DNA from: Alphaproteobacteria bacterium
GTDB lineage: Bacteria > Pseudomonadota > Alphaproteobacteria > SP197
Reading direction: 5' to 3'
Assembly (NCBI GenBank): GCA_016869675.1
Contig: VGDP01000027.1
Location: 1-43,088 of the forward strand
DNA length: 43,088 nt
The notes beneath the pieces were generated by a model. It was not told the DNA's origin. It ran no database searches and saw nothing but the letters and a program-made list of their open reading frames with translations. The position numbers and the translations under genes are program-made. Positions 12,256 through 37,699 of the stretch are shown here, piece after piece (the stretch's first letter is position 1; every line of letters starts with the position of its first letter).

Positions 12256-12265
12256 CGGGCGGTGC

Positions 12266-16627: not shown

Positions 16628-17842
16628 TCAGACGGCGGCGGCCTGGCGCACCTTGAGCACGCCCAGCTTCTCGCCCACGTGCTCGAAGACCTCGACGATC
16701 CGGCGGATCTGCGGCCGGGTGTGCGCCGCCGAAATGCTGCAACGAAGGAGCGCGATGCCGTTGGGCGTCGCGGGCGGCAGGGCCAGGTTGACGTAGACGC
16801 CGTTCTCGAGCAGCGCGCTCCAGAACTGGATCGTGGTCGCGACATCCTGGAGCTGCACCGCCACCACCGGACTGATCTGCGGGCCGACCACGAAGCCGCG
16901 CCAGGACAGGCCGTCGTGCAACGCGCGCGCGTTGCCCATCAAACGGGTGCGCAGCTCGGGCCGGCGCACCAGCACCTCGAGCGCCTTGAGCACCGAGGCC
17001 ATGGTGCTGGGCGGCAGCGACGCCGTGAACATGTACGGGCGGCACGCCACGCGCAGCACATCGAACTCGTCGTGGTCCGAGACGCAGAAGCCGCCGACGG
17101 CGCCCAGGCTCTTGCTGAACGTGCCGACCACGAAGTCGACGTCGGCCTCGACGTCCGCCTCCTCGGCCAGACCACGGCCCGTGCGGCCCAGCACGCCCAT
17201 GGAGTGCGCTTCGTCGACCATCAGATAGGCGCCGTGCCGGCGCTTCACCTCGACGAAGGCGGCCAGCGGCGCGCGGTCGCCCAGCATGCTGTAGATGCCT
17301 TCGGCGATGATCAGGCGCGCACCGCCGTCCTCGGGCAGGCGCCGCAGGCGGCGGTCCAGGTCGTCCGCCTCGTTGTGGCGGAACCGCGTCACCTTCGCGC
17401 CGCCCAGCCGGCAGCCGTCGTAGATGCTGGCGTGGCAATCGGCGTCGATGATCAGGTGATCGTTGGGCCCGGCCAGGGTCGAGATCATGCCGAGGTTGGC
17501 CTGGTAGCCGGTCGAGAACACCATGCAGTGCCGCCGGCCGAAGAACGCGGCCAGCGCGTCCTCGAGCTGCCGATGGGCCGCGTACGAGCCGTTGGCGATG
17601 CGCGAGCCGGTGGTGCCCGTGCCTTCCTCGTGCAGCGCCGCGACGGCGGCCTCGACGCACTCGGGGTCGAAGGTCAGGCCCAGATAGTTGTTGGTACCGA
17701 CCATTAGGGTCGGCCGGTTGTCGATGATCGCCTCGGTCGGCGACAGCACGCGGTCGATGGCGACCTTGAAGGGGTTGTGGCCGCTCTGGGCGAGACCGCG
17801 ATAGGTCTCGGCCAGGGACGCGAACTTCGCGTACAGGCTCAT
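16628..17842 (-). CDS. spt: Serine palmitoyltransferase (alpha-oxoamine synthase)
   Basis: PLP enzyme that condenses L-serine with a long acyl thioester to form 3-ketosphinganine, the first step of sphingolipid synthesis. The 404-residue protein is collinear with bacterial SPT of the Sphingomonas type: NRPTLMVGTNNYLGLTFDP, FSTGYQANLGMISTLAG, DADCHASIYDGCRLG (His137 stacks on PLP), DEAHSMGVLGRTGRG (Asp210, His213) and the Schiff-base Lys244 in GTFSKSLGAVGGF. RPYMFTASLPPS is a block that favours SPT over biotin-type KAPA synthases. The acyl carrier protein gene ends 2 bp before its start, the pairing known for bacteria that feed SPT from acyl-ACP. 5-aminolevulinate synthase or KAPA synthase are unlikely alternatives given these blocks. 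Confidence 0.87.
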   Translation of the reverse strand: MSLYAKFASLAETYRGLAQSGHNPFKVAIDRVLSPTEAIIDNRPTLMVGTNNYLGLTFDPECVEAAVAALHEEGTGTTGSRIANGSYAAHRQLEDALAAFFGRRHCMVFSTGYQANLGMISTLAGPNDHLIIDADCHASIYDGCRLGGAKVTRFRHNEADDLDRRLRRLPEDGGARLIIAEGIYSMLGDRAPLAAFVEVKRRHGAYLMVDEAHSMGVLGRTGRGLAEEADVEADVDFVVGTFSKSLGAVGGFCVSDHDEFDVLRVACRPYMFTASLPPSTMASVLKALEVLVRRPELRTRLMGNARALHDGLSWRGFVVGPQISPVVAVQLQDVATTIQFWSALLENGVYVNLALPPATPNGIALLRCSISAAHTRPQIRRIVEVFEHVGEKLGVLKVRQAAAV

Positions 17843-17844
17843 GG

Positions 17845-18099
17845 TCAGGCCGCTTCCTTCTTGATCCGGTCGATGGCCATGGCCAGATCGCGCACGGTCT
17901 GGATCTCCGGCAGGTGATTGAGCGAGATGGACACGTCGAAGCGATCCTCGAGCATCATCAGCAGGTCCATCTCGGCCAGAGAATCCAGGTTGAGATCACG
18001 CTTGAGCAATGTTGCCTCGTCGATCTTGAAACGACCCTTGGTGGCGCCTGTCAGCAGCTCGCCGATCGTGCCGACGATCTGCTGGTAGGTCTCGGTCAT
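17845..18099 (-). CDS. Acyl carrier protein for sphingolipid synthesis
   Basis: Small carrier (84 residues) that presents the acyl chain on a phosphopantetheine arm. The attachment Ser sits in RDLNLDSLAEMDLLMMLEDRF, the standard DSL motif at the start of helix 2. The start MTETYQQIV at 18099 (GGAG upstream) matches the usual ACP length; an ATG 20 codons earlier is open but would add a non-conserved tail. It is 2 bp from the serine palmitoyltransferase start, so it is probably the dedicated acyl donor for that enzyme rather than the housekeeping FabF/FabH carrier. Confidence 0.88.
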   Translation of the reverse strand: MTETYQQIVGTIGELLTGATKGRFKIDEATLLKRDLNLDSLAEMDLLMMLEDRFDVSISLNHLPEIQTVRDLAMAIDRIKKEAA

Positions 18100-18361
18100 G
18101 AACGACGGGGCTCCGGCGAACGCCTCTCCCCCGTACGGCGGCTCATTTAGTAGGGTCATGGCTCGGTCAACAAATTGTCATGATAAACAATCAAATTTAG
18201 GATCTTTTCTCAAGCGCAGGCCCAATCGGCGGCGCACGCCCGGAACGGCCGGCAAATGCGACGAAAAGGTCTGCGAAGTCAGCACTTTGAGCGCAATCGA
18301 GGCGGCCCGGAGAGGGGCCAAGGGCCGATCAAAATGTGTTAACGCGTGTTACAAGGGGCAT
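18100..18361 (-). promoter_or_regulatory. Relatively AT-rich leader, candidate acp-spt promoter
   Basis: About 260 bp with no gene between the rhomboid gene and the acyl carrier protein gene. Around 18170-18215 the base composition is clearly more AT-rich than elsewhere in the window (minus strand: TTGAGAAAAGATCC, then TTTGATTGTTTATCAT). A TTGAGA/TGTTTA pair 18 bases apart could be a sigma-70 type promoter, but the match is weak. The placement of the dip just before a two-gene operon is the main argument. Confidence 0.35.
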
Positions 18362-19268: not shown

Positions 19269-19549
19269 GGCTCAGGGTAGCCGACAGGGCGGTGCTCGGC
19301 CATGGCCTCGGCGCGCAGGGTCTCCTTGAGGTCGGCGGGCAGACGCGTCCAGGGCAGGGGGAGCAGGGCACCGGCCAGGGCCCACAGGGCGTTCAACGAA
19401 GTGTGGCGTGGGTCCGCCGCCTTGAGCCGGCGATAGGCCTCGACCGCGCCGACACGGCGCAGCGCCGCCTCGTCGGCGATGCCGAGCGCGACGAGCCGGC
19501 GCGCCGTTTCGGGGCCGATGTTGCGCAAGTGCGCGAGCGTGCGGCTCAT
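19265..19549 (-). CDS. TfoX C-terminal domain protein
   Basis: A 94-residue protein consisting only of the TfoX/Sxy C-terminal domain: LRNIGPETARRLVALGI (a helix-hairpin-helix-like start), ADEAALRRVGAVEAYRRLKA and SLNALWALAGALLPLPW. In gammaproteobacteria full-length TfoX regulates competence. Stand-alone C-terminal domains are widespread in alphaproteobacteria with no settled function. Both ends overlap neighbours by 4 bp (ATGA with the MFS gene upstream and the rhomboid gene downstream), so it is translated as part of that message. Confidence 0.82.
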   Translation of the reverse strand: MSRTLAHLRNIGPETARRLVALGIADEAALRRVGAVEAYRRLKAADPRHTSLNALWALAGALLPLPWTRLPADLKETLRAEAMAEHRPVGYPEP

Positions 19550-20760
19550 GCGGTGGCGAGCGTCGGCGTCCTTGGTCCATCCCGGATCGTGAGCGCGATC
19601 GCGCCGGCCAGCAGCGCCAGTACCAGCGCGATGATCCAGACCCAGACATAGCGGGCGAACAGATCGAACAGCACGCCGGCCAGGATCATGCCGGTCGCCG
19701 CGCCGAGGCTGTGACCCATGAACAACACGCCGAGCGCGAGCCCCATGATGCCGACGCCAAGCTGACTTGCGACGATCCCGGCGATGACCGGAAAGACCGA
19801 GAAGTTGAGCAGGCCGAACATGGCGGCGAACAGGAACAGCGCGGGCGGATTGCCCGCGATCCCCATGAGCACCACGAACGACAGCGCGCGCAGCACGAAG
19901 ATCGCGGCCAGCAGGGTCGGCCGGTGCATGCGGTCGACCAGCCAGCCGGTCAGGATCATGCCCGCCAGATTGCCGGCGGCGAGCACCGAGAAGGCGCGCG
20001 CGCTCTCGAGCGGCACGTAGCCACACAGCGCCGCGTAGGGGAACAGGTGGGTCTCGACGACGCCGGTGGTCGTGAAGCCGCACAGCGTGAAGCTGGCGAA
20101 CAGTGCGCGGAACGTGTGGCTGCGCGCGAGCCGGCGCAGCCGGTCGCCGAGCGATTCACGCGCCTGCGCGGCGTGCAGCGTCACCGGCGTGCGCCGGCCG
20201 GTGACCAGCCAGACCGCCGGCATCAGCAGCAGCGCGAGGGCGGCGTTGGCGGCGAAGGGCAGGTTCCACGCCACGTTGGCCAGCAGCCAGGCCATGACCG
20301 GGATGAGCAGGAGTTGGCCGGCCGTCGAACCGGCGATCGCCAGCGCGGTCGCCAGGCCGCGCCGGGTCGCGAACCAGGCGGCGACCACCGCGGCGATGAC
20401 GTGCTGGGCGACGAAGCCGTAGCCGATGCCGCCGAGCACGCCGAGCGCGGCCAGGAACTCCCAGCGCGTGGTGGCGCCGTAGGCGACGAGGCCGGTGCAG
20501 GCCAGACCGGCGAGCCCGGCCAGCAGGACCGGGCGCGCGCCGAAGCGATCGGCCAGATTGCCGGCCAGGGGCGAGGCGATCGCCGTGGCCGCCAGCGCGA
20601 TCGCGCCGGCCGAGGACGCGAAGGCGCGCGTCCAGCCGAACGTCTCCTCCCACGAGGTCATGGTCAGGCCCAGCAGCGCGCGCCCGGTGAAGCTGACGGC
20701 GAGCGCGCCGAAGCCGACCGCGACTACGGCCCACGCGCGGCGCCCCGGCGCCGGGCTCAT
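19546..20760 (-). CDS. Major facilitator superfamily transporter
   Basis: Twelve-helix secondary transporter, 404 residues. The ATG at 20760 shares a base with the stop of hydrolase A (TGATG), a typical coupled arrangement. It has GNLADRFGARPVLLAG after helix 2 (the MFS signature GxLaDrxGrrxxl) and GWLVDRMHRPTLLA at the matching place of the second half. The sequence resembles the oxalate/formate-antiporter-like and monocarboxylate-like MFS clades (WEETFGWTRAFASSAGAI, GGIGYGFVAQHVIAAVVAAWF). Given the translational coupling with a CocE/NonD hydrolase, it may import that enzyme's substrate or export its product. Confidence 0.87.
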   Translation of the reverse strand: MSPAPGRRAWAVVAVGFGALAVSFTGRALLGLTMTSWEETFGWTRAFASSAGAIALAATAIASPLAGNLADRFGARPVLLAGLAGLACTGLVAYGATTRWEFLAALGVLGGIGYGFVAQHVIAAVVAAWFATRRGLATALAIAGSTAGQLLLIPVMAWLLANVAWNLPFAANAALALLLMPAVWLVTGRRTPVTLHAAQARESLGDRLRRLARSHTFRALFASFTLCGFTTTGVVETHLFPYAALCGYVPLESARAFSVLAAGNLAGMILTGWLVDRMHRPTLLAAIFVLRALSFVVLMGIAGNPPALFLFAAMFGLLNFSVFPVIAGIVASQLGVGIMGLALGVLFMGHSLGAATGMILAGVLFDLFARYVWVWIIALVLALLAGAIALTIRDGPRTPTLATA

Positions 20761-22781
20761 CACACCAGCTTGCGCGGCACCGAGCGCGTCCAGGAGCGCG
20801 CGAACACGCGACGTTCGCCGTCGAAGGCCTCGAGGTCCGCCTCGATCTGGAAATGGCTGGCCGTCGCGGTCATGACCGTGCGCGCCTCGATGCGCGGGTG
20901 CCAGCCGTCGTGGCCGAGCGCCAGCGTCATGGTGTTGGCGTGGCGCGCGCTCAAGGGGTCGCGCGCGTCGATGCTGTAGCGGGTCGCCTTGGCGAAGCGC
21001 GCATCGACGCCGATCGCCTCGATGCGCTCCGTGCCCTCATCGCGCATCACCGTGTAGGTGGTCAACCCCGTGGCGAGATCCTGATCGACGCCCCGCTGCG
21101 CGATGCGCGGCGTAAGGCGCGTGCTGAGCCCCGGCGCGGCCATGGCGGGCGGCGGGAACGCGACGGCCACATCCTCGGGGCGCGGCGCGCGCGCCGGCAG
21201 GGTCAGGCGCGAGGCCCCGGCGGCGATCGCGAGCGTCGCGGCTACGGGCGCGGGCCAGACGATCGGCCAGTAGCAGGTCGAGACGGCGAGCCGCACGCGG
21301 TGGCCCGGCGCGAAGGCGTGGCCACAGTCGTTGAGCTGGACGCGCACGCGCTCGGCCTTGCCGGGCTTGAGTGGCCGCGGCCGCGCGTGCCCGCGCCGGT
21401 GGGTCAGGTTGAGCACGCCGAACGAGACGCGCAGCGACGTGCCGTCGGGCGCCACGTCGCACAGGCGGACCACGACCGTGGCGACCGGCCGGTCGGCCGC
21501 GACCGTCAGCTCGACCACCGGCGCGCCCAGGATTTCGAGGGGCGCGTCGAGCGGCGCGGCATCGAACACGAGCGACTTGCCGTCGTCCTCGCGCTGGTCG
21601 TGGGGCAGCTCGGGCGTCTGGCCGCCCAGGCCGTAGGCGCACCATTCGCCGCCGGCCAGGCCGGTGGTCTGCGGCGAGCAGGCGGTGAGCACGCGCTTGG
21701 CACCGGCGCGCGCGGCCAGCCCGTCGTGGTTCAGGTGCAGGACGCTGGCGCCGACGCCGGGCCCCGGCCACGCCCGCTCGGCCACCCAATGGCCCGGCCG
21801 TTCAGGATGGTGGGAGCACGGCGGCACGTAGTGCTGCACCCAAGCGCGCAGCATGGGTTCGTCCATGATTCCGGTCGCGCGGCCCTTGAGCCAGTGGTCC
21901 CAGAAGCGCAACGCCTCCTGCAGGAAGCCGATGGCCGGGCCGGGGATGCCGTCGTAGGGGTAGGTATGGCCCCACGGCCCGACGATGCCGAGGCGCGGGC
22001 ACGCCAGGTTGGCGAGCACCCGGAACACCGCGTTGGAGTAGCCGTCGGCCCAGCCGCCGATGGCCATGACCGCGCAGCGGATCGCACCGTAGTCCTCGCA
22101 GACCGAACCGTGCTTCCAGTAGCCGTCGCGGAACGGATGGCGCAGCCAGGTCTCGAAGTAGGGTGTCACCGCGTCGATCCGCGCGCGCCACGTCTCGCGC
22201 CAGCCGTCGCCGACCACGTGCGGGTCGGGCGCGCGGCCCATGATCGCGAAGAACGCCGTGCCCCAGTTCAGGTTGTCGTTGAGCAGCGCGCCGCCCATGT
22301 AGTGCATGTCGTCGGCGTAGCGATCGTCGGTGAACGCCACCGGGATGATCGCCTTCAGCGCGGGCGGCCGGCGCGCCGCGACCTGCAGGCAGTTGAACCC
22401 GCCCCACGAGATGCCGGTCATGCCGACGCTGCCGTTGCACCAGGGCTGCGCCGCCAGCCAGGCGATCGCGGCGACGGCGTCGTCCTGCTCCTGCTTCGTG
22501 TATTCGTCGATCAGAATGCCCTCGGAATCGCCCGAGCCGCGGATGTCTAGGCGCACGCAGGCGTAGCCGTGGCCCGCCCAGTAGGCGTGCATGGGATCGT
22601 CGCCGAGTCGGGTGCCGTCGCGCCGGCGGTAGGGGATGTACTCCAGGATCGCCGGCACCGGATCGCGCTCGGCGTCCTCGGGCAGCCAGACGCGCGCCGC
22701 CAGGCGCACGCCGTCGGGCATGGGTATCCACACGGTCTCCAGCTCGTGGACCTTGCGCGGGAACGCGGTGACGATGGTCAT
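20760..22781 (-). CDS. CocE/NonD-family hydrolase, paralogue A
   Basis: Alpha/beta hydrolase of the X-Pro dipeptidyl-peptidase/cocaine esterase (S15) superfamily, which cleaves esters, amides or acyl-peptide bonds; 673 residues. Catalytic residues read directly: Ser125 in GISWGGF, Asp246 in GGWADGYSNAV, His272 in GPWGHTYP, with the oxyanion Tyr51 in YIPYRRRD. The N-terminal ~300 residues form the hydrolase plus cap domain. The C-terminal ~250 residues match the jelly-roll domain of the family (LEILGAPVVELTVAADRPVA, VRLCDVAPDGTS). No export signal, so it is probably cytoplasmic. It is third in a tandem of three paralogues and coupled to the MFS gene. Substrate unknown. Confidence 0.88.
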   Translation of the reverse strand: MTIVTAFPRKVHELETVWIPMPDGVRLAARVWLPEDAERDPVPAILEYIPYRRRDGTRLGDDPMHAYWAGHGYACVRLDIRGSGDSEGILIDEYTKQEQDDAVAAIAWLAAQPWCNGSVGMTGISWGGFNCLQVAARRPPALKAIIPVAFTDDRYADDMHYMGGALLNDNLNWGTAFFAIMGRAPDPHVVGDGWRETWRARIDAVTPYFETWLRHPFRDGYWKHGSVCEDYGAIRCAVMAIGGWADGYSNAVFRVLANLACPRLGIVGPWGHTYPYDGIPGPAIGFLQEALRFWDHWLKGRATGIMDEPMLRAWVQHYVPPCSHHPERPGHWVAERAWPGPGVGASVLHLNHDGLAARAGAKRVLTACSPQTTGLAGGEWCAYGLGGQTPELPHDQREDDGKSLVFDAAPLDAPLEILGAPVVELTVAADRPVATVVVRLCDVAPDGTSLRVSFGVLNLTHRRGHARPRPLKPGKAERVRVQLNDCGHAFAPGHRVRLAVSTCYWPIVWPAPVAATLAIAAGASRLTLPARAPRPEDVAVAFPPPAMAAPGLSTRLTPRIAQRGVDQDLATGLTTYTVMRDEGTERIEAIGVDARFAKATRYSIDARDPLSARHANTMTLALGHDGWHPRIEARTVMTATASHFQIEADLEAFDGERRVFARSWTRSVPRKLV

Positions 22782-22855
22782 GGTGGGCTGCGATCCTTCG
22801 GCAGTGGGTTCGGGGTAGCGGCGGTGGCCGATGCAACGGCCATCGCCACCTTACG

Positions 22856-24880
22856 TCAAACGAGATCGCGCGGGATGCGCGCGTCCCAGCGCTTCTCGGC
22901 CACGCGCTCGTCGCCGTCGTAAGCGTTGAGCTCGCCCTTGACCAGGAAGTGATCGCGTGTGGCGGTCACGACCGTGCGGGCGGCGGTGCGCACGCGCCAG
23001 CCCGGGCGGGCGTACTCGGTCGTCCGCCACATCTCGGTGCGCGCGCTCAAGGGATCGTCGTCGCGCACCGACAGCGCCTCGCCGGTCCAGTAGCCGACCT
23101 CTAGCCCGATCCTGGTCATGCGGTAGCGCCCGACGTCCTCCTGCACGCGCAGCGTCGTGGTGCCGGTCAGCACGTCGCGTTCGAGCACGCGGCGCGACAC
23201 CGACGGCTCGAGCTGCTCGCGCTCGACACCCGGCGCCAGCTCGACCTCGGGGAACAGCGTCATGGCGGCGTCGGCCTCGCGCGGCGGCCGCTCGGGCAAC
23301 TCGAGCTTGCTCGCGCCCGCATGAAGCGTGAGCGTCACTGGCTCGGGCGCGGGAAACACCATAGGCCAGTACGTGGTGGAGATCGCGACCCGCAGCCGGT
23401 GTCCGGGGTCCACCGCGTAGGCGATGTCGTTGAGCTGGACACGCACCGTGGTGCGCTGTTTGGGCACCATGGGCTTCGGGAACTCGTGGCTGTCGCGGTG
23501 CGTCAGGTTCAGGAGGCCGTATGTGATGCGCGTGACCTCGCCCTGCGGCGCGACCGTGCCGAGCCGCACGGCGACGAAACCCACCGGCTTGTCGATGGCC
23601 AGGTCGAGCTGGACGACCGGCGCCCCCAGGATCTCGAGCCGTTCCGCGAGCGGCGGCGAATCGAAGACCAGCGAGCGGCCGTCGTCCTCGCGCTGGTCGG
23701 TCGGGAACTCCGGGCCCGTGCCGCCGGTGCCGTAGGGGCACCATTCGCCGGCGGCGAGGCCGACGGTCTGCGGCGACACGGTCGTCAGCGCGGCTTCGGC
23801 CCGGGCGCGCCGGCCGAGGCCGTCGTGGTTCAGCGTCCAGAGGCGCGTCTTGATGCGCGGGCTGGGCCACTTGGTCTCGCCGACCCAGCGCCCCGGGCAC
23901 GTCTCGTAGAAGCCCTTGGCGGGGACTTTCTCCTGCATCCAGACGCGCAGCATCGGTTCGTCCATGATGCCGGTGGCCTGGCCCTTCAGCCAGTGATCCC
24001 ACCAGCGCAGCCCTTCCTGCAGGAAGCCGATCGCCGGGCCGGGGATAGCGTTGTGCGGGAACTTGTGCGCCCACGGCCCGATCAGGCCGAGGCGCGGTGT
24101 CCTGAGGTGTGCCAGCATGCGCGGAATGGCGTTGGAGTAGCCGTCCAGCCAGCCGCCCACCGCGAACACGGCGCAACGCACATCGTCGTAGTTCTCGCAG
24201 ATCGAGCCGTGCTTCCAGAACGCGTCGCGGCGCTGGTGGCGCATCCACTCCTCGACGGGGAACGCCGCGGCCGCCAGCCGCTCGCGGTACATGGCGCGCC
24301 AGCGCTCGCCGACCAGCGCCGGGTCCGGCGCGCGCGGCAGCCAGCCGAAGAACGTGGTGCCCCAGTCGACGTTGTCGTTGAGCAGGCAGCCGCCCATGTA
24401 GTGCATGTCGTCGGCGTAGCGGTCGTCCGTCGAGCACGACGTGATGATCGCTTTCAGCGCCGGCGGCCGGCGCGCCGCGACCTGCAGGCTGTTGAAGCCG
24501 CCCCACGAGTTGCCGATCATGCCGACCGCGCCGGTGCACCAGGGCTGGGCGGCCAGCCAGGCGATGGCGTCCACCGCGTCGTCCTGCTCCTGCTCCAGGT
24601 ACTCGTCGACCATGACGCCGTCGGATTCGCCCGAACCGCGCATGTCGAGCCGCACCGTGGCGTAGCCGTGCCCGGCCCAGTAGGGGTGCATGGGCTCGTC
24701 GCGCAGCGCCGTGAAGTCGCGCTTGCGGTAGGGGATGTACTCCAGGATCACGGGCACGGGTTTGCGCTCGGCGTCCTCGGGCAGCCAGACGCGCGCGGCC
24801 AGCCGCGCCCCGTCGGGCATCGGGACCCAAAGGTTCTCGATCTCGCGCACGGGGCGCGGAAAACGGTTGACGATCTTCAC
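22856..24880 (-). CDS. CocE/NonD-family hydrolase, paralogue B
   Basis: Second tandem paralogue, 674 residues, fully collinear with A over the first 280 positions. Triad: Ser125 in GNSWGGF, Asp246 in GGWLDGYSN, His272 in GPWAHKFP; Tyr51 in YIPYRKRD. The residue before the nucleophile is Asn here instead of Ile, and the cap region (EWMRHQRRDAFWKHGSICEN) also differs, which suggests a changed substrate pocket. GTG start at 24880 gives the same N-terminus (VKIVNRFPRPV) as the others and has GGGAG upstream. It is 16 bp from the end of paralogue C and 74 bp from the start of A, consistent with one transcript. The C-terminal jelly roll is intact. Confidence 0.88.
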   Translation of the reverse strand: MKIVNRFPRPVREIENLWVPMPDGARLAARVWLPEDAERKPVPVILEYIPYRKRDFTALRDEPMHPYWAGHGYATVRLDMRGSGESDGVMVDEYLEQEQDDAVDAIAWLAAQPWCTGAVGMIGNSWGGFNSLQVAARRPPALKAIITSCSTDDRYADDMHYMGGCLLNDNVDWGTTFFGWLPRAPDPALVGERWRAMYRERLAAAAFPVEEWMRHQRRDAFWKHGSICENYDDVRCAVFAVGGWLDGYSNAIPRMLAHLRTPRLGLIGPWAHKFPHNAIPGPAIGFLQEGLRWWDHWLKGQATGIMDEPMLRVWMQEKVPAKGFYETCPGRWVGETKWPSPRIKTRLWTLNHDGLGRRARAEAALTTVSPQTVGLAAGEWCPYGTGGTGPEFPTDQREDDGRSLVFDSPPLAERLEILGAPVVQLDLAIDKPVGFVAVRLGTVAPQGEVTRITYGLLNLTHRDSHEFPKPMVPKQRTTVRVQLNDIAYAVDPGHRLRVAISTTYWPMVFPAPEPVTLTLHAGASKLELPERPPREADAAMTLFPEVELAPGVEREQLEPSVSRRVLERDVLTGTTTLRVQEDVGRYRMTRIGLEVGYWTGEALSVRDDDPLSARTEMWRTTEYARPGWRVRTAARTVVTATRDHFLVKGELNAYDGDERVAEKRWDARIPRDLV

Positions 24881-24896
24881 GGCCGGGCTCCCAGGG

Positions 24897-26912
24897 TTAG
24901 ACCAGATCGCGGGGCATACGCACGGATTCGCTGCGCGCGGCGATGCGCCGACCGTCCTCGAAGGCGTCGAGTTCGGCGTGGATGAGGAAAGCGTCGCGCG
25001 TGGTGGTCAGGGTCGTGCGCGATTCGTGCACCACGTCCCAATCGGCGCGTCGGTAGCTGAAGCGGTAGACCACCTCGGCCACGGCGCCGTCGGGATCGTC
25101 GGCGTGGACGCGGAACAGCTCGCGCCGCCACGAGCCGTACTCCAGGTCGATGTCCTCGATGCGCACGCGCCCGGTGTCGAAGATCACCTCGCACTCGGTC
25201 GCGCCGGTAGCCACGAGGCGGCGGACGACCTGGCTGGCGCGGCCAGGCTCGATCTGGCTCGCGCGCATGGCGGGGCCCTGCTCGGGCGGCTGGAAGCGGA
25301 CGGCCGCGTCCTCGGGGCGTGGCGCGCGCACCGGCAGGGCCAGGCGCGAGGAACCGGCGAAGACCGTCAGCGTCACCGGCTCGGGCGTCGGCCAGGCGAT
25401 CGGCCAGTACGCGCTGGACAGCGCGACGCGAATGCGGTGCCCGGCGGGGAAGCGGTGCGCGACGTCGCCGAGCGCCACGCGCACGGTCATGCGCCGCCCG
25501 GGCTCGACCGGCTTGGGCGCCGCGTGGCCATCGCGGTGGGTCAGGTTCAAGAGACCGTAGGTGACGCGCGCCGAGGAGCCATCGGGCGCCACGTCCAGAA
25601 GCCGCGCGGCGACCATGGCGACCGGGCGGTCCGCCGCCACCTCCAGCGTGAGGACCGGCGCGCCCAGGATCGCGAGCGGCGCCGCCAGCGGCGCGCTGTC
25701 GAACACCAGCGACCCGGCGTCGTCGATGCGCTGGTCGGTCGGCAGGTCGGTGCCGGTGCCGTGGCCGCACCACTCGCCGCCGGCCTGGCCGGTGTCCTGC
25801 GGCGAACGTACGGTCAGCGCGACCTCGGGACCGGGCCGGTCGGTCAGACCGCGCGCGTCGAGAACGAGCTCGAGCGGGGCGCGGCCGTCGGTCGGCGGCC
25901 ACACGGGCTCGGCGACCCACTGGCCCGAGCGCTCGGCGTAGCCGGGCCGCGGCGGATCCCAATCGTGCAGGAAGGCGCGCAGCATCGGCTCGGCCATGAT
26001 CCCCGTGTCGCGGCCCTTCAGCCAGTGGTCCCACCAGCGCAGCATCTCCTGCAGGATGCCGACGGCGGGACCGGGCAGTCCCTCGTGGCCCCAGAAATGC
26101 GCCCACGCGCCGATGATCGCCTGGCGCGGCACGCTGAGCCCCGCCAGCAGGCGCGGTATGGCGTTGGTGTAGGAATCAGCCCAGCCGCCCAGCAGCATCA
26201 CCGGGCACGCGATGGCGCCGTAGTCCTCGCAGACCGAACCGTGCGCCCAGTAGGCGTCGCGCCGCTGGTGGCCGAGCCAAGTGGCCAGGAACACCGGCAG
26301 CGCGTCGAGCCGCCGCCGCCACGCTTCGCGCCAGCCCGGGCCCACCACCGCCGGGTCGGGCGGCGCGGCGGCACGGCCCCACATGGTCGCGGCCCACGAG
26401 AAGTTGTCGCCCAGCACGCAGCCGCCCATGTAGTGCACGTCGTCGGCGTAGCGATCGTCGGTCGAGCAGCAGCTGACGATCGCGGCCAGCGCTGGCGGCC
26501 GGCGCGCGGCGACCTGCAGGCTGTTGAAGCCGCCCCACGAGATGCCCATCATGCCAACCTTGCCGGTGCACCAGGGCTGGCGCGCCATCCAGGCGATGAC
26601 CTCGAGCGCGTCATCATGCTCCTGCACCGTGTACTCGTCGGTCAGCAGGCCCTCGGAATCGCCCGATCCGCGCAGGTCCACACGGACGCAGGCGTAGCCG
26701 TGCCCGGCCATGTGCGCGTGCTTGGGCTCGTCGCGCGCGCGCGTGCCGTCGCGCCGGCGGTAGGGCACGTACTCCAGGATCGCCGGCACGGGATCGCGCT
26801 CGGCGTCCGCGGGCAGCCACAGGCGCGCCGCCAGGCGCACGCCGTCGGCCATGGGGATCCACTGGGTCTCGACCAAGCGCACGGCGCGCGGGAACGTTGT
26901 GACGATCTTCAC
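24897..26912 (-). CDS. CocE/NonD-family hydrolase, paralogue C
   Basis: First gene of the tandem set, 671 residues from GTG 26912, chosen because it aligns with the starts of the other three and has a GGGGG ribosome site. The longer open frame upstream adds 49 residues without similarity. Triad Ser125 (GISWGGF), Asp246 (GGWADSYTNAI), His272 (GAWAHFWG). The His block has GAW where the others have GPW, and the loop after it differs most among the four, so the pocket entrance is probably distinct. C-terminal domain LAILGAPVLTLEVAADRPVA matches the family. It is divergent from the TIM-barrel gene, so regulation may be shared through the ~150 bp gap. Confidence 0.87.
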   Translation of the reverse strand: MKIVTTFPRAVRLVETQWIPMADGVRLAARLWLPADAERDPVPAILEYVPYRRRDGTRARDEPKHAHMAGHGYACVRVDLRGSGDSEGLLTDEYTVQEHDDALEVIAWMARQPWCTGKVGMMGISWGGFNSLQVAARRPPALAAIVSCCSTDDRYADDVHYMGGCVLGDNFSWAATMWGRAAAPPDPAVVGPGWREAWRRRLDALPVFLATWLGHQRRDAYWAHGSVCEDYGAIACPVMLLGGWADSYTNAIPRLLAGLSVPRQAIIGAWAHFWGHEGLPGPAVGILQEMLRWWDHWLKGRDTGIMAEPMLRAFLHDWDPPRPGYAERSGQWVAEPVWPPTDGRAPLELVLDARGLTDRPGPEVALTVRSPQDTGQAGGEWCGHGTGTDLPTDQRIDDAGSLVFDSAPLAAPLAILGAPVLTLEVAADRPVAMVAARLLDVAPDGSSARVTYGLLNLTHRDGHAAPKPVEPGRRMTVRVALGDVAHRFPAGHRIRVALSSAYWPIAWPTPEPVTLTVFAGSSRLALPVRAPRPEDAAVRFQPPEQGPAMRASQIEPGRASQVVRRLVATGATECEVIFDTGRVRIEDIDLEYGSWRRELFRVHADDPDGAVAEVVYRFSYRRADWDVVHESRTTLTTTRDAFLIHAELDAFEDGRRIAARSESVRMPRDLV

Positions 26913-27061
26913 GGGTGACCCCCAGGGCAGCGGGCGTCGATGATGGCGGGCCGGCGCGGACGGCGTCAACGGGGCCGCACGTCCTGGATACAGAATTGCG
27001 CGCTGGATCACGCGCGCCGTTCGTGCTCCGATGACGGGTGGACGCGGCACGGGGGCCACGG
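26913..27061. promoter_or_regulatory. Divergent intergenic region of the hydrolase locus
   Basis: About 150 bp separate the divergently transcribed paralogue C and the TIM-barrel gene, so promoters for both the hydrolase-MFS-TfoX-rhomboid unit and the TIM-barrel/DUF1989 unit should lie here. An imperfect dyad CTGGATACAG at 26984-26993 might be a regulator site, but no clear -35/-10 boxes can be read. Confidence 0.35.
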
Positions 27062-27946
27062 GTGCGCCTCGGCATCTTCACCGGCTACTACGATGACCCG
27101 CTCGAGACCTGCGCGGCGCGCATCGCCGCCGCCGGCTTCGACCTGGTGCAGCTCGACTTCAAGTTCCCCGACATCGCGACGACGACCGAGGCGATCACGT
27201 CGGACGCCTGCGCGCGCATCCGCCAGGCCTTCGCCACGCGCGGCATCGGCTTCGCCGCCGTCTCGGGTTACGTCAACCTGGTGGCGCCCCAGGCGGCGCG
27301 CAAACGCGCCACGCGCGACCGTCTGGCGCGCATCCTGGCGCTGGCGCCCGAGCTCGGCTCGCCCTTCGTGGTCACCGAGACCGGGACCAAGCACCCGGAG
27401 GACGACTGGGCGCCGCACGCGGATACGGCGCGCCCCGGGGTCTACGAGGAGTTCCGCGACGAGATCGGCGCGATGGCCGAGATCGCCCACCGCCACGGCG
27501 CGGTGGTGCTGATCGAGGGCGCGGTCGGCAACGTCATCGACACGCCGGCCGCGGTGGCGCGGCTGTTCCATGACGTGCCCTCGGCCGCGCTCGGCCTGCT
27601 CATGGACCCGACCAATTTCCTCGACGCGTCGAACCTGGGCGACCAGCACCGCGTGATCGAGAGCTTGTTCGCGCCCGCCATCGCGCCGCGCGTCCACGTC
27701 GCCCACGCCAAGGACGTGCGCCGCGTCGGCCCGGACGGCGAGCGTCGCGAGCGGCACAACCACCTGCCGGTGCCCGACGCCCGCGCCGAATGGCCGGCGG
27801 CGAGCCTGGGCGCGATGGACTACGACCTCTACCTGCGCCTGCTCGCGCGCCATGACCCGGACATCGCGCTGATCCTCGAGCACATCGAGGCGACCGACGT
27901 GCCCCACGCGCGTGCCTTCGTCGAGGCGAAGCTGGGGACGAGATGA
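27062..27946 (+). CDS. Sugar-phosphate isomerase/epimerase-like TIM barrel
   Basis: Member of the AP-endonuclease-2-type TIM-barrel superfamily (xylose isomerase-like), 294 residues from the GTG at 27062 (GGGGG upstream); a GTG eight codons earlier is also possible. The metal-binding residues of the fold can be placed: Glu in VLIEGAVGNV, Asp in GLLMDPTNF, His in VHVAHAKDV and Glu in LILEHIEAT. Such proteins isomerise sugars, inositol derivatives or hydroxy-acids; nothing in the sequence fixes the substrate. Its stop overlaps the DUF1989 start (ATGA), so the two are translated together and probably act in one pathway. It is divergent from the hydrolase tandem. Confidence 0.8.
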   Translation: MRLGIFTGYYDDPLETCAARIAAAGFDLVQLDFKFPDIATTTEAITSDACARIRQAFATRGIGFAAVSGYVNLVAPQAARKRATRDRLARILALAPELGSPFVVTETGTKHPEDDWAPHADTARPGVYEEFRDEIGAMAEIAHRHGAVVLIEGAVGNVIDTPAAVARLFHDVPSAALGLLMDPTNFLDASNLGDQHRVIESLFAPAIAPRVHVAHAKDVRRVGPDGERRERHNHLPVPDARAEWPAASLGAMDYDLYLRLLARHDPDIALILEHIEATDVPHARAFVEAKLGTR

Positions 27947-28554
27947 GCGGCGTCATTGACATCACGGTCCCCGCCGGCGGCTCGTGGTCGGGCGTGGTTG
28001 CGCGCGGGAGGGTGTTGCGCGTCGTCGATCTGGAGGGGCGGCAGGGTGTGGACTTCCTGTGCTACGGGCATCCCGGCACCGAGGAGCGCTATCACGCCGC
28101 CAACACGCTCAAGAAGGCCGGTACGCTGCGCCTCACCACCGGCCACACGCTCTACTCCGACGCGGCGCGGGCGATGTTCACCGTCGTCGCCGACAGCTAC
28201 GGGCTGCACGACACCATCGCCGGCTGTTGCTCCGCGCCCTCCAACCGGCTGCTCTACGGCGTCGAGAACGTGCCCGGCTGCCGCGAGAACTTCCTGAAGG
28301 AGCTGGCGCGCCACGGCCTGGGGCGCGAATCGGTCGTCGCCAACGTCAACTTCTTCTGCGACGTGCCGGTGCACGAAGGCGGCCGGCTGGAGCCCCTGAC
28401 CTTCCGCCCGGCCACCAGCCGGCCGGGCGACCACGTGGACCTGCGCGCGGACATGGATTGCCTCGCGGTGATCTCCAACTGCCCGCAGGTCAACAACCCG
28501 TGCACGGCCGGCTCGCCGACGCCGATCCGCGTCCTGGTGATCGAGGGCGGGTGA
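27943..28554 (+). CDS. DUF1989 (urea carboxylase-associated) family protein
   Basis: A 203-residue protein with the DUF1989 fold signatures: GRVLRVVDLEGRQGVDFLCY near the start, HDTIAGCCSAPSNRLLYG in the middle, VNFFCDVPV and the C-terminal SRPGDHVDLRADMDCLAVIS followed by NCPQVNNPC. Paralogues of this family are the urea-amidolyase-associated proteins, and some act in guanidine/carboxyguanidine breakdown. The many conserved Cys/His residues suggest metal binding. Here no urea carboxylase or allophanate hydrolase is nearby, so a role outside urea metabolism is likely. Partnership with the TIM-barrel gene is indicated by the 4 bp overlap. It converges on paralogue D with 28 bp between them. 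Confidence 0.85.
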   Translation: MSGVIDITVPAGGSWSGVVARGRVLRVVDLEGRQGVDFLCYGHPGTEERYHAANTLKKAGTLRLTTGHTLYSDAARAMFTVVADSYGLHDTIAGCCSAPSNRLLYGVENVPGCRENFLKELARHGLGRESVVANVNFFCDVPVHEGGRLEPLTFRPATSRPGDHVDLRADMDCLAVISNCPQVNNPCTAGSPTPIRVLVIEGG

Positions 28555-28582
28555 AGGCACGAGCGAGGCTAGGGGCGAGGGC

Positions 28583-30616
28583 CTACATCCCGTCGCGCGG
28601 GATGGCCGAGGTCCACTCGCGGCTGAACACGCGCGCCTCGCCATCGTAGGCGTCGAGCTCGGCCACCATGTGGAACGTGGTCGCGTCCGACCACATGCGC
28701 GTGCGCGCCTTGAGCCGGATGCGCCAGTCGCCGCGCGCCATGGTGTACTCGTGCTCGATGTAATGGCTGGCGCATAGGGGATCGTCCGGATGGATCGTCA
28801 TGACCCGGTCGATGGTGTGGCCGAGCGTCAGGCCGATCTCGTCGATCAGCGTCTCGGCGGCGCCATCGAACAGGCCGCCGTCGTTGTACACGCGGTAGGC
28901 GACCTCGCCGGTCGCCAGGTCGTGGTGGATGGTGCGCTCGTAGCGCCCCGGGCGCACGGTCGTGGTCTTGAGGCGCGGCGCGCACGCGGGCGGGTCGAAG
29001 GCGCGCAGGCGGTCGTCCGCCTGGTCGGCCGCGCGCACCGGCAGCGTCACGCGGCCGGCACCGGCGAACAGCGTCAGCGTGACCGGCTGCGGGCTCGGCC
29101 AGACCAGCGGCCAGTAGGCGGTCGAGACCGCCAGCCGGATGCGATGGCCGGTGGCGAACACGTGGCTCGCGTCGTTGAGTTGCACACGGACCGTCATGCG
29201 CTGGCCGGGCACAATGGGAACCACGGTGCCGTGGTTGTCGCGGTGGGACAGGTTGGCTAGGCCGTACGTCACGCGCGCGACCTGGCCATCGGGCGCCACG
29301 TCGCACAGACGCACGGCGACGAACGCGCTCGGCCGGTCGACGGCGAGGGCCAACTCGACGACGGGCGCGCCGAGGATCGCTACGGCCTCGTCCAGCGGCG
29401 GGCCGTCGAACACCAGGCTGCCGCCGTCGTCGGCGCGCTGATCGGTCGGCATGTCGCCGACGATGGCAAAGCCCGAGAAGTCGCCGCCCGCCAGGCCCAC
29501 CGTCTCGGGCGAGCGATGGGCGAGCGCCCGCTCCGGTCCGGGCGCGTCGGCGAGTCCGTCGGCGTTGACGTGCAGGGTCCGAGGTCGGGTGCGCGGGGTT
29601 GGCCACACGGGCTCGGCGATCCAGCGGCCGGGCATGGCCGCGTGGAAGCCGGCGGGCGGCGCCCAATCCTGCTGCCAAACGCGCAGTGTGGGTTCGTCCA
29701 TCACGCCGTTGGCCTCGCCCTTCAACCAGTGGTCCCACCAGCGCTTGCATTCCTGGAGGAAGCCGATGGCGGGCCCGGGCACGCCGTCCTGCGGGTAGAG
29801 GTGCGCCCACGGCCCGACCAGGCCCTTGCGTGGCACGCTCAGGCCGGCCAGCAGGCGGAACACGGCGTTGGAGTAGCCGTCGGCCCAGCCGCCCACCGCG
29901 AACACCGGGCACTGGATGGCGCCGAAGTCCTCACAAACCGAGCCATGCTTCCAATAGCCGTCGCGCCACTGGTGCCTGAGCCACGGGTCGGGCAGGAACG
30001 GGTTCGCTTCGAGCCGTTCCAGCCACTGGGCGCGCCAGCCCTCGCCGACGATCGCCGGATCGGAGGGCCGGGCGCTGAAGATCAGCATCACCGTGCCCCA
30101 CATCAGGTTGTCGTTGAGCAGGCAGCCGCCCAGGTAGTGGATGTCATCGGCGTAACGGTCGTCGGTCGACATCACCGTGACGATGGCGCCCAGCGCCGGC
30201 GGCCGGCGCGCCGCGACCTGCAGCGCGTTGAAGCCGCCCCACGACTTGCCCATCATGCCGACCTTGCCGGTGCACCAGGGCTGCGCCGCCAGCCAGGCGA
30301 TAACCCCGAGCGCGTCGTCGTGCTCCTGCTTGGTGTACTCGTCGTGCATCAGCCCGTCGGATTCGCCCGAGCCGCGCATGTCCACGCGCACCGCGGCGTA
30401 GCCGTGGCCGGCGAACCACGGGTGCATGGCTTGGTCGCGCCCGCGCATGTAGTCGCGCTTGCGGTAGGGGATGTACTCGAGGATCGCCGGCACGGGGTTG
30501 CTCTCGGCGTCCTCGGGCAGCCAGGCGCGCGCGGCCAGCCGCGTGCCGTCGGCCAGCGGGATCCACAGGTTCTCGATGTGGCGCACGGGGCGCGGCAACG
30601 CGGTGTCGATGCGCAT
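28583..30616 (-). CDS. CocE/NonD-family hydrolase, paralogue D
   Basis: Fourth paralogue, 677 residues from ATG 30616 (GGAGGGA upstream), separated from A-C by the TIM-barrel/DUF1989 pair. Triad Ser125 (GKSWGGF), Asp246 (GGWADGYSN), His272 (GPWAHLYP), Tyr51 (YIPYRKRD). The Lys before the nucleophile is unique to this copy. The strand from 150-210 (MSTDDRYADDIHYLGGCLLNDN) is nearly the same in all four, which shows a recent common origin. C-terminal jelly roll VAILGAPVVELALAVDRPSA is intact. It is a single-gene unit, divergent from the GFA gene, so it may be expressed under different conditions from A-C. Confidence 0.88.
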   Translation of the reverse strand: MRIDTALPRPVRHIENLWIPLADGTRLAARAWLPEDAESNPVPAILEYIPYRKRDYMRGRDQAMHPWFAGHGYAAVRVDMRGSGESDGLMHDEYTKQEHDDALGVIAWLAAQPWCTGKVGMMGKSWGGFNALQVAARRPPALGAIVTVMSTDDRYADDIHYLGGCLLNDNLMWGTVMLIFSARPSDPAIVGEGWRAQWLERLEANPFLPDPWLRHQWRDGYWKHGSVCEDFGAIQCPVFAVGGWADGYSNAVFRLLAGLSVPRKGLVGPWAHLYPQDGVPGPAIGFLQECKRWWDHWLKGEANGVMDEPTLRVWQQDWAPPAGFHAAMPGRWIAEPVWPTPRTRPRTLHVNADGLADAPGPERALAHRSPETVGLAGGDFSGFAIVGDMPTDQRADDGGSLVFDGPPLDEAVAILGAPVVELALAVDRPSAFVAVRLCDVAPDGQVARVTYGLANLSHRDNHGTVVPIVPGQRMTVRVQLNDASHVFATGHRIRLAVSTAYWPLVWPSPQPVTLTLFAGAGRVTLPVRAADQADDRLRAFDPPACAPRLKTTTVRPGRYERTIHHDLATGEVAYRVYNDGGLFDGAAETLIDEIGLTLGHTIDRVMTIHPDDPLCASHYIEHEYTMARGDWRIRLKARTRMWSDATTFHMVAELDAYDGEARVFSREWTSAIPRDGM

Positions 30617-30713: not shown

Positions 30714-31148
30714 ATGCAACGAACCGCGGTCTGCACCTGCGGACAGCTGTCGGTGACCGTCGCGGGCGACCCCGCGTTCCACGGCCTGTGCAGTTGCCTG
30801 GAATGCCAGAAGCTGACCGGTAGCGCGTTCAGCTACTCCGGCTACTGGCCCAAGGAAGCGGTGCGCCGCATCGCGGGCGAGAGCAAGTCGTGGCGGCGCG
30901 GTTCCGACTCCGGGCGCTGGCTCGACCAGCACTTCTGCCCGACGTGCAGTTGCGCGGTGTTCGGCTACGCCGAGTTCGCGCCGGACATGATCAACGTCTC
31001 GATCGGCAATTTCACCGATCCCGGGTTCCCGCCACCGACTTACGCGGTGTGGAACGAGCACCGGCACCCCTGGGTCGCGCTGCCGGACGCGTGCACTAGC
31101 CGGCCGTGGCGGTCCGGCACCGAGGAGGGCGGCGATGACCAGGGCTGA
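30714..31148 (+). CDS. GFA-family (glutathione-dependent formaldehyde-activating-like) zinc protein
   Basis: A 144-residue protein of the GFA/CENP-V superfamily. The zinc-binding cysteines are all present: CTCG at residues 5-7, CSCLECQ near 26-31 and CPTCS near 78-82. Despite the family name, most members are not proven to act on formaldehyde. ATG 30714 has GGAGGGA before it. The 3' end overlaps the decarboxylase gene by 14 bp, so the two are co-translated; a link to amine or aldehyde chemistry is possible but not shown. Confidence 0.85.
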   Translation: MQRTAVCTCGQLSVTVAGDPAFHGLCSCLECQKLTGSAFSYSGYWPKEAVRRIAGESKSWRRGSDSGRWLDQHFCPTCSCAVFGYAEFAPDMINVSIGNFTDPGFPPPTYAVWNEHRHPWVALPDACTSRPWRSGTEEGGDDQG

Positions 31149-32586
31149 TCCCACCGCCACGCCGGACCAGGCGCGCCTCGAGCTAGCGCCCGAGGCGATG
31201 CGCGCCTTCGGCCACGCGGTGGTCGACGCCATCGTCGATCGCCTCGCCGACCAGGCGTCGCTCAAGGTCACCACGCGCAAGACGCGCGCCGAGCTGGACG
31301 CGCTGCTGTGGCAGGACCCGCCGGCCGGCCCGACCGACCCCAACGCCGTGCTCGCCCGCGTGGTCGAGCACGTGCTGGGCAACTGCATGATCCCGAGCCA
31401 CCCGCGCTTCTTCGCCTTCGTACCCGGGCCGTCCTCGTTCGTCGGCGCCATGGCGGACGCGCTGGTCGCCGGGTTCAACCCGTTCGCCGGCACGTGGTTC
31501 GAAAGCTCGGGCGCGGCCGAGGTCGAACTCCTGACCATCGACTGGCTTCGCCGTGCCTTCGGCCTGCCCGAGGGCGCGGGCGGCCTGTTCGTCAGCGGCG
31601 GTTCGGTCGCCAACCTGACCGCGCTGGCCGCGGCGCGCCACATGAAGCTGGCCGACCGGGTGGCCGGCGCCGTGGGCTACGGCTCGGCCCTGGTCCACGG
31701 CTCGCTCGACAAGGCGTTCCACATCCTGGGCTTCGGGCGCGAGCAGTTCCGCCGCCTGCCGGTGGGCGACGACGGCCGGCTCGTGCCGGGCACCGTGGCC
31801 GAGGCGGTCGCGGCCGACCGCGCGCGCGGGCTCAGGCCCTTCCTGATCATCGCCAACGCGGGGACCACGAACACCGGCGCCGTCGATCCGCTGCCCGCGC
31901 TGGCTGACTTGGCGGCGGCCGGAGGGCTGTGGCTGCACGTGGACGGCGCCTACGGCGCGGCGGTGGCGCTCACCGCGCGCGGCGCGGCCGCGCTCGACGG
32001 CCTGGGCCGCGCTGATTCAGTGGTGGTCGATCCGCACAAGTGGCTGTTCCAGCCCTACGAGATCGGCGCCGTTCTCGTGCGCCAGCGCGACTGGCTCAAG
32101 CGCACGTTCCAGAGCGAGGCCGACTACATGCAGGATACGGAGCCGCTCAACCGCGAGATCAACTTCTGCGACCACGGCATCCAGCTCACGCGCGGGTTTC
32201 GCGCGCTCAAGCTGTGGATGACGGTGCAGGTGCACGGCATGGACGCGATCCGCGCGGCGATCGAGCACGGGCTCGGCTTGGCCGAGCACGCCGAACAGCT
32301 GTTGCGCGCCGACCGCCGGTTCGAAGTCATGACGCCGGCCTCGCTCGGCGTCGTTACGTTCCGATACGTGGGTCAGGGCAAGGGCGCGGGCAACCTGGAT
32401 GCGCTGAACCGGGCCATCGTCGGCGCCATGATCGAGGATGGCTTCGCGCTGGCGACCTCGACCCAGGTGCGCGGCGCGACGGTGCTGCGCTTCTGCACCG
32501 TCAACCCGCGCACCAGCGAGGGCGACATGGCCGCAGTGATCGAACACATCGCGATGCTGGGCGCACGCATCGCGGACAAGAGCTAG
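31135..32586 (+). CDS. PLP-dependent group II amino-acid decarboxylase
   Basis: Removes the carboxyl group of an amino acid to give an amine; 483 residues. Group II (aromatic L-amino-acid/glutamate-type) features are present: HPRFFAFVPGPSSFVGAMAD at the substrate side, SGGSVANLTAL for phosphate binding and His189 in VHGSLDKAF that stacks on PLP. NAGTTNTGAVDPL, Asp270 in LHVDGAYGAA and the Schiff-base Lys302 in DPHKWLFQPYE complete the set. The usual HVDAAYAG is HVDGAYGA here, a modest change near the cofactor. The preferred amino acid cannot be predicted; some clade members act as amine oxidases or aldehyde synthases. ATG 31135 has GAGGAGGG upstream. Its stop overlaps that of the convergent VOC gene. 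Confidence 0.87.
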   Translation: MTRADPTATPDQARLELAPEAMRAFGHAVVDAIVDRLADQASLKVTTRKTRAELDALLWQDPPAGPTDPNAVLARVVEHVLGNCMIPSHPRFFAFVPGPSSFVGAMADALVAGFNPFAGTWFESSGAAEVELLTIDWLRRAFGLPEGAGGLFVSGGSVANLTALAAARHMKLADRVAGAVGYGSALVHGSLDKAFHILGFGREQFRRLPVGDDGRLVPGTVAEAVAADRARGLRPFLIIANAGTTNTGAVDPLPALADLAAAGGLWLHVDGAYGAAVALTARGAAALDGLGRADSVVVDPHKWLFQPYEIGAVLVRQRDWLKRTFQSEADYMQDTEPLNREINFCDHGIQLTRGFRALKLWMTVQVHGMDAIRAAIEHGLGLAEHAEQLLRADRRFEVMTPASLGVVTFRYVGQGKGAGNLDALNRAIVGAMIEDGFALATSTQVRGATVLRFCTVNPRTSEGDMAAVIEHIAMLGARIADKS

Positions 32587-34551: not shown

Positions 34552-35715
34552 TCAGCGCGGGGCGGCGTCCAGGCTGCGCGGCAGCGCCAACGCGGCCAAG
34601 ACCTCGACCGCCACGGCCGCTCCGAGGATCGCGTAGAGGGCGTCGAATCCCCAACCGTCGTGGACCCAGCCGACCAGCGGCACCGCGGCGACGCTGATGC
34701 CGAGCGAAAGCTGGTAGACGACGGCGTAGACGCGCGCGCGCCAGCGCGCCGGCGTGACGCGCGCGACCAGGGTGTCGCCGACCGGGATCAAGCCGAACAC
34801 CAGCAGCATGGCGATGCCGGCCATGACGATGCCGGCCATGCCCGACGCCAGCGCGACGCCGCCCAGCGCCACCGCCTCGGCCAGCAGCAGGCCGACATAG
34901 AGCCGGCGCATGGGGACGCGGTCGAGCAGCGTGCCTACGACGATCTGGGCGAAGCCCGCGATGCCGAGCACCACGGTCGCCGCGATGCCCGCGCCTGCCG
35001 GCGTCGCGGTGTCGACGAAGCCGACCATCAGCTTGGGCAGCGACACGGTGGTGGCGGTGAAGACGACACCGCCCGTCGTGGTGGCGATGGTCAGCACGGC
35101 GCCGACGCGCCACAGCGACGCCCGCGTGAGCGAGACCGTTGGTCCGGTCGCTGCCTGGTCCTCGCGACGGCGTCCATCGGGTGCCACCAGCAGGGCGTAG
35201 CCCAGGCCGAGCAGCGCCACGACGATGCCCGGCACCGCGAACGCGCCCAGCCAGTCGCCATGGGCGAGCAGCACCGCGGTCGCGACCGGCGCGGCGGCCA
35301 GGCCCAGGTTGCCGCACACGCCGTTGATGCCCATGGCGCGCCCGAGCTTGCCGGGCGCGGTCTCGGCCACCAGCGCGACCCCGATCGGGTGGTAGATCGC
35401 CGCGGCGAGGCCGATGGCGAACAGCCCGGCGCCGATGGCGAGCGGCGTCGTGGCGAACCCGGTGCCGATTGCAGCGGCCCCGAGGCCGACGAAGCAGACG
35501 ATCATCAGGTTGCGCCGGCTCATCCGATCGCCCAGCCAGCCGACTGGCAGGGTCAGCAGCGCGATCGCGACGTAGGACCAGGTCGCCAGCCCGACCAGCG
35601 CGCCGTAGCTGGCGCCGGAGCGCGCCTCGAGCGCGATCACGGCCGTGGGGTAGATCATCAGCAGGAAATGAGTCGCGGCGTGGCCGACATTGAGAAAGGC
35701 GAAGGGCAGGGTCAT
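34552..35715 (-). CDS. MFS exporter (fosmidomycin-resistance-like)
   Basis: Twelve-helix transporter, 387 residues from ATG 35715, where the first helix starts (MTLPFAFLNVGHAATHFLLM). An upstream ATG at 35769 is open but adds a non-conserved leader. The signature GWLGDRMSRRNLMI follows helix 2, and IYHPIGVALVAETAPGKLGRAMGINGVCGNLG is characteristic of the Fsr/fosmidomycin-resistance group. GTLLDRVPMRRLYVG is the equivalent loop of the second half. It is divergent from an AraC-family regulator with 77 bp between them, the arrangement of a regulator with its target efflux gene. Drug or metabolite exported unknown. Confidence 0.86.
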   Translation of the reverse strand: MTLPFAFLNVGHAATHFLLMIYPTAVIALEARSGASYGALVGLATWSYVAIALLTLPVGWLGDRMSRRNLMIVCFVGLGAAAIGTGFATTPLAIGAGLFAIGLAAAIYHPIGVALVAETAPGKLGRAMGINGVCGNLGLAAAPVATAVLLAHGDWLGAFAVPGIVVALLGLGYALLVAPDGRRREDQAATGPTVSLTRASLWRVGAVLTIATTTGGVVFTATTVSLPKLMVGFVDTATPAGAGIAATVVLGIAGFAQIVVGTLLDRVPMRRLYVGLLLAEAVALGGVALASGMAGIVMAGIAMLLVFGLIPVGDTLVARVTPARWRARVYAVVYQLSLGISVAAVPLVGWVHDGWGFDALYAILGAAVAVEVLAALALPRSLDAAPR

Positions 35716-35792
35716 GGCGCGGGCGAAGTCCTTGGTTCCGGTCGAATGTCGCGCAAGGCACGGCAGCATCGCCTTCGATAGAATGACGTGCC

Positions 35793-36554: not shown

Positions 36555-36568
36555 TCTATAGTCCACCC

Positions 36569-37582: not shown

Positions 37583-37654
37583 TCGGTTCGACACGCGACA
37601 TTTCGGTGGACGGGCTCCGCGTCAGCGCTCAAGATCGCCTGATCCGCAGAATGA

Positions 37655-37666: not shown

Positions 37667-37699
37667 CAACGCGGGGGGGGGCAAAACGGGGAGGGGCGC

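Follow-up and report, generated by a model that had tools for sequence, protein, structure and literature searches.

A local cluster of four CocE/NonD hydrolase genes within a lineage-wide expansion in an uncultured aquatic alphaproteobacterium

Gene organization of the hydrolase locus

The stretch of DNA analysed in this work (the window, 43,088 nucleotides) is a whole contig, C27, of the 3.49-Mb genome of an uncultured water-living alphaproteobacterium that is assembled in 97 contigs. Positions 20760-30616 hold four intact genes, all on the minus strand, for CocE/NonD (S15) hydrolases of about 670-677 residues, i.e. H1 (20760-22781, 673 aa), H2 (22856-24880, 674 aa), H3 (24897-26912, 671 aa from the GTG start that was chosen, a longer ORF with upstream starts being possible) and H4 (28583-30616, 677 aa). 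The open reading frames and their S15 and TIGR00976 matches bear out the four collinear hydrolases that a reading of the sequence alone had proposed, to which we add a gene pair on the plus strand that separates H4 from H3. This pair encodes a xylose isomerase-like TIM-barrel protein (27062-27946; PF01261, E 7e-23), divergent from H3, and a DUF1989 protein (27943-28554; PF09347, E 3.8e-55), and the two genes overlap by 4 nt.

The H3, H2 and H1 genes run head to tail into a gene for an MFS transporter (19546-20760, minus strand; PF07690, E 3.5e-44), the stop codon of H1 overlapping the start codon of the MFS gene by 1 base (TGATG). H3 and H2 are separated by 16 bp and H2 and H1 by 74 bp, and the latter spacer (22782-22855, minus strand) contains a GC-rich stable stem-loop (z -2.57) without a U-tract. 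It is plausible from this arrangement that H3-H2-H1-MFS lie on one transcript, with H2-H1 as its weakest link. No RNA elements or tRNAs were found within the window. In the NCBIfam scan the MFS protein reached no equivalog cut-off; its top scores, all below cut-off, were to monocarboxylate/organic-anion carriers, and efflux models scored weakly.

Beyond H4 lies a gene for a PLP-dependent decarboxylase (31135-32586, plus strand; PF00282, E 3e-58), followed by a flanking block (34552-41076) that encodes a further MFS protein, AraC-type and GntR-type regulators, a 4-hydroxyproline epimerase and an acetylornithine-deacetylase-like protein. The left flank (3329-14387) carries polyamine-type ABC transporter genes and TRAP-type transporter-like ORFs, as well as a glutamine-synthetase-like (PuuA-like) gene and a PuuD-like gene that give it an amine-catabolism flavour. 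At 16628-18159, on the minus strand, a serine palmitoyltransferase gene (665 bits against a cut-off of 500 bits) adjoins a small acyl-carrier-protein-like ORF, and these two likely serve bacterial sphingolipid synthesis.

Family membership and active site of H1-H4

All four proteins match Peptidase_S15 (E 3e-67 or better) together with PepX_C, and they score 240-249 bits against TIGR00976 (CocE_NonD), the highest value being that of H1, above the curated cut-off of 66.3. The triad Ser125, Asp246 and His272 (H1 numbering), which the sequence-only reading had placed at identical positions in the four copies, is indeed shared by them and is invariant across 137 aligned members of the ~670-residue subfamily to which they belong. 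The corresponding segments align with the serine, aspartate and histidine segments of the cocaine esterase CocE from Rhodococcus, and a putative oxyanion Tyr is found within EY(I/V)PYR in each of H1-H4, aligned with the NPY of CocE (CocE Tyr44). The likeness to CocE, at about 25% identity, extends to the three-domain fold, whereas the nucleophile elbow is G-X-S-W-G in the window enzymes and G-V-S-Y-L-G in CocE.

The residue preceding the nucleophile, at position 124, is Ile, Asn, Ile and Lys in H1, H2, H3 and H4, respectively, just as had been claimed. Over the 137 subfamily sequences, however, this position holds I in 91, K in 25, N in 8, L in 6, S in 4 and G in 3, and the residue follows the clade across the whole subfamily. 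Therefore the variation did not arise in this locus, and the pre-nucleophile residue was rejected as a unique trait because it is common to whole clades.

The differences that had been noticed in the cap proved to be paralogue-specific and conserved between orthologues. Position 124 and the cap positions 149, 180, 181, 207 and 208 are kept between orthologues and differ among the paralogues, positions being counted here when they are the same in orthologues and show three or more kinds of residue among the four paralogues. Identity in the cap is 58% between paralogues versus 77% between orthologues, and in the C-terminal domain it is 34% versus 59%. Such a residue pattern is what one would expect if the enzymes had distinct specificities that have been maintained, which is an argument and not a proof, and H1-H4 likely act on different substrates.

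Scores against the PRK05371 PepX models were 18-108 bits, far below the cut-offs of 642-881 bits. PepX (6nff, 1lns) has the same S15 and PepX_C domain order and a similar fold (Z 22-24), but the window proteins begin directly at the S15 core, which leaves no space for an additional N-terminal domain. A crude hydrophobicity check revealed no apparent signal peptide in the copies of this genome, which fits cytoplasmic hydrolysis after uptake.

Predicted structure and the C-terminal beta domain

The AF2 model of H2 (pLDDT 96.1) matches CocE (1ju3, 1l7r) over residues 7-533, with Z of about 30, an rmsd of 2.3-2.6 A over 486-491 residues and about 24% identity. The matches that come after CocE are SACOL2612 of S. 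aureus, alpha-amino acid ester hydrolases (1mpx, 2b9v; same fold with Z of about 26, and a lower sequence score) and PepX. The core, helical cap and jelly-roll domains are thus assigned by the model in H2 and by alignment in H1, H3 and H4.

Compared with CocE, the window enzymes add a C-terminal all-beta domain of about 130 residues, which is present in all of H1-H4 and in H2 comprises residues ~545-674 (22859-23248, minus strand). This domain has eight strands and was modelled with a pLDDT of 96.5 when folded alone. It gave no Pfam match and no PDB sequence match, and a Foldseek search with the domain alone against the PDB and viral models returned nothing at E <= 0.001. An axonemal chain gave the best structural Z, 9.1, a likeness that may reflect only a common sheet arrangement; the others were 7.7 or less and mostly to open beta sheets or barrels. 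Within the bacterial family a profile of the domain matches almost only CocE-type reading frames, and nearly all members of the ~670-aa CocE subfamily there carry the domain. It is the least expected feature seen at this locus.

H1-H4 are old paralogues of an expanded subfamily

The genome contains 15 CocE-type S15 matches, among them 12 intact copies and 1 disrupted copy of the ~670-residue subfamily, so that H1-H4 represent 4 of 13 copies. The remaining two are better described by the general CocE model, and neither matches the subfamily C-terminal domain. The 13th copy, on contig C13 of this genome (G000; L137, about 6586-8414), is split into two reading frames, has an in-frame TGA and is either a pseudogene or an assembly error. 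Further tandem pairs lie on contigs C62 and C57. Subfamily matches were detected in all 16 genomes of the bacterial family, with 4-15 in each, some of them fragments, whereas in a sample of 289 genomes of the class only 37 had any such match.

H1-H4 are 55-58% identical to each other. For each of them a Lake Baikal relative of a second genus (G004) has a one-to-one orthologue, and the content of contig C37 in this relative agrees with the Baikal-deep-G51 MAG record SHVY01000020. The orthologues of H2 (75%), H3 (71%) and H4 (67%) are all on C37, and that of H1 (68%) is on contig C38, giving an orthologue range of 67-75%. In a maximum-likelihood tree of 45 rows each of H1-H4 pairs first with its own counterpart of the Baikal relative, and the four are scattered over different parts of the tree without forming a clade. 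H2 groups with the C57 pair, and the H4 clade also includes sequences from Halomonas, Myxococcota and Rhodothermota. Forcing H1-H4 and their orthologues into one clade cost 163 lnL units (AU p 1.9e-92). The separate clades and the AU test, together with the identity of 55-58% between paralogues against 67-75% between orthologues, indicate that H1-H4 are old paralogues that were brought or kept together.

The neighbourhood is partly conserved in a second genus

Contig C37 of the Baikal relative keeps the order acetylornithine-deacetylase-like protein, GntR-type regulator, 4-hydroxyproline epimerase, MFS protein, PLP decarboxylase, H4, DUF1989 protein, TIM-barrel protein, H3 and H2. The PLP decarboxylase orthologue (65%) adjoins that of H4, the TIM orthologue (67%) lies at the same position, and the DUF1989 orthologue is 77% identical. 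Three intervening genes were named by eye or by weak matches: one amidohydrolase-like and one Rieske-type gene between H4 and the DUF1989 gene, and a beta-lactamase-like gene between H3 and H2. Directly downstream of the H2 orthologue, and convergent with it, are nitrile hydratase beta, alpha and accessory genes (L139:1747-3285). No transporter gene is directly adjacent to the H2/H3/H4 module in this genome, and the TIM marker gene was absent from the 14 other family genomes searched, so that 2 of 16 carry it.

The orthologues of H1 and the MFS gene (66%) adjoin each other on C38. A rhomboid-like gene neighbours them, as it does in the window, yet there they lie beside hemC and tsaD. Since H1-MFS occupies a separate locus there, two modules, H1-MFS and H2/H3/H4, are supported, and one system with one transporter is not. 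The proposed coupling to the MFS transporter is supported for H1 by the 1-base overlap and by an adjacency kept in the second genus. As grounds for refuting it, the sequence-only reading had named a neighbourhood conserved nowhere else together with paralogues scattered in relatives, and the outcome was divided: a second genus does keep the neighbourhood, but the paralogues are indeed scattered.

Another orthologous CocE pair shared by two loci (L136:6317-12952 and L182:2901-9487) adjoins trimethylamine-methyltransferase-like, glycine-betaine-monooxygenase-like Rieske, RidA-like and HpaB-like genes, and it is possible that this is a quaternary-amine cluster.

The DUF1989 protein of the window shares its domain with the carboxyguanidine deiminase and UAAP proteins, and its closest named model is UAAP2, although it stays below the cut-offs of TIGR03424 (212 bits against 284.7) and TIGR03425 (173 against 206). 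Unlike the UAAP and CgdAB proteins, it is paired with a TIM-barrel protein, and no urea or guanidine carboxylase was found among the window proteins scanned. The DUF1989 family includes the carboxyguanidine deiminase CgdAB (PMC11271267) and also a domain of TMAO demethylase (PMC12560246).

Transporter genes accompany copies of the subfamily

Among 145 neighbours of subfamily copies in the bacterial family, a neighbour being a protein encoded within two genes of a copy, SBP_bac_5 occurred 8 times, MFS_1 8 times, BPD_transp_1 7 times and EamA 5 times, counts that ignore shared ancestry. None of these four was among the families listed (two or fewer each) for 141 control proteins encoded on stretches taken at random from genomes of this bacterial family, several of the stretches being from fragmented MAGs. 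The suggested link to transport is thus upheld for the subfamily in this bacterial family, as an over-representation uncorrected for shared ancestry. Trimethylamine-methyltransferase-like, N-formylglutamate-amidohydrolase-like and DUF1989 proteins also recurred, 3 times each. In a blast-based survey, oligopeptide-type ABC genes lay at most 6 kb from a copy, often directly adjacent, in 39 of 105 loci from several phyla, including those of Labrys, Dongia, Methylocapsa and Desulfosarcina; this proportion is biased, because the queries were drawn from such loci, and it too is uncorrected for shared ancestry. The adjacency of transporter genes supports a general logic of import followed by hydrolysis.

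Discussion

We consider it reasonably probable, at about 0.7, that cytoplasmic CocE/NonD enzymes have expanded throughout this lineage, that the locus is one place where they are concentrated, and that each paralogue cleaves a different ester or amide imported by transporters encoded close by. The enzymes are of an ordinary kind in an expanded lineage, and their neighbourhood is partly conserved in one other genus. The alpha/beta-hydrolase core with its Ser-His-Asp triad and oxyanion Tyr would be the predicted catalytic unit of each enzyme; the helical cap would shape the pocket for the acyl and leaving groups, and a jelly roll and the extra beta domain typical of the subfamily would complete the protein. 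Small esters or amides would be taken up by transporters encoded nearby, each paralogue most likely hydrolysing a different one. H1 and the MFS protein would act as one transport-and-hydrolysis module, and the TIM-DUF1989 pair together with H2, H3 and H4 as another. The products would enter general amine, amino-acid and C-N catabolism, a destination suggested by a neighbourhood rich in decarboxylase, 4-hydroxyproline epimerase, acetylornithine-deacetylase-like and PuuA/PuuD-like genes. Here we infer the catalysis and the substrate differences of H1-H4, and likewise the direction of transport by the MFS protein.

The sequence-only reading went further and saw in H1-H4 and the MFS transporter one dedicated pathway for importing and splitting a single family of compounds. 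The physical clustering of the genes would agree with such a pathway, as would the order of H2, H3, H4 and the TIM-DUF1989 pair and the large flank kept in the second genus, but it is made unlikely by the location of H1-MFS beside hemC and tsaD in that genus, by the placement of the four enzymes in separate clades and by the many subfamily copies in family genomes most of which are without the TIM marker gene. With 4 of the 13 genome copies at this locus, a single dedicated four-enzyme system is not supported; the proposal is borne out in part, and what is left of the supposed undescribed operon is a local cluster in an expansion that spans the lineage. Searches of the literature on CocE/NonD clusters, on their expansions and on peptidase S15 in connection with transporters yielded nothing about this subfamily; a CocE/NonD hydrolase expressed in acesulfame-grown Shinella was not associated with acesulfame hydrolysis (PMC11500405).

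A role of H1-H4 as peptidases, X-Pro or aminopeptidase-like as in some S15 members, that trim imported oligopeptides also appears improbable. PepX and 4pf1 are among the fold matches and oligopeptide-type ABC genes are frequent neighbours, whereas the scores against the Xaa-Pro dipeptidyl-peptidase models are far too low and the H1 module of the window has an MFS transporter instead of an oligopeptide-type ABC system. The oligopeptide-type ABC class, moreover, also carries opines, nickel and other small compounds, which counts against a peptidase.

The hydrolases might instead inactivate toxic esters or beta-lactam-like compounds, the products being exported by the MFS protein. We regard such detoxification or resistance as very unlikely: the fold is common to CocE, alpha-amino acid ester hydrolases and related enzymes, and MFS_1 also covers exporters, but the best, sub-cut-off scores of this MFS protein are to monocarboxylate/organic-anion carriers, the neighbouring genes are catabolic and other subfamily copies accompany ABC importers with binding proteins. 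Recent and still redundant tandem duplication, which adjacency and equal length might suggest, is rejected by the tree and the AU test and deserves practically no credence in view of the 55-58% identity, the separate clades and the orthologues in another genus.

Beyond the reading preferred here, of a local concentration of substrate-specific hydrolases, a broader and rather doubtful proposal is that the unannotated C-terminal beta domain marks the ~670-residue subfamily as a branch of its own among the CocE/NonD enzymes, which has radiated in uncultured aquatic Alphaproteobacteria into a dozen substrate-specific, transporter-paired hydrolases for an unrecognised class of dissolved organic esters or amides, for example amine or betaine conjugates. 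The conserved C-terminal beta domain would merit a family entry of its own, and the paralogues, if their differences are as proposed, would offer a natural set of variants with defined elbow and cap differences for mapping specificity in the CocE fold. If the substrates of the paralogues truly differ, the lineage would show how a single hydrolase family, through many copies linked to different transporters, came to exploit dissolved organic compounds in lakes and seas.
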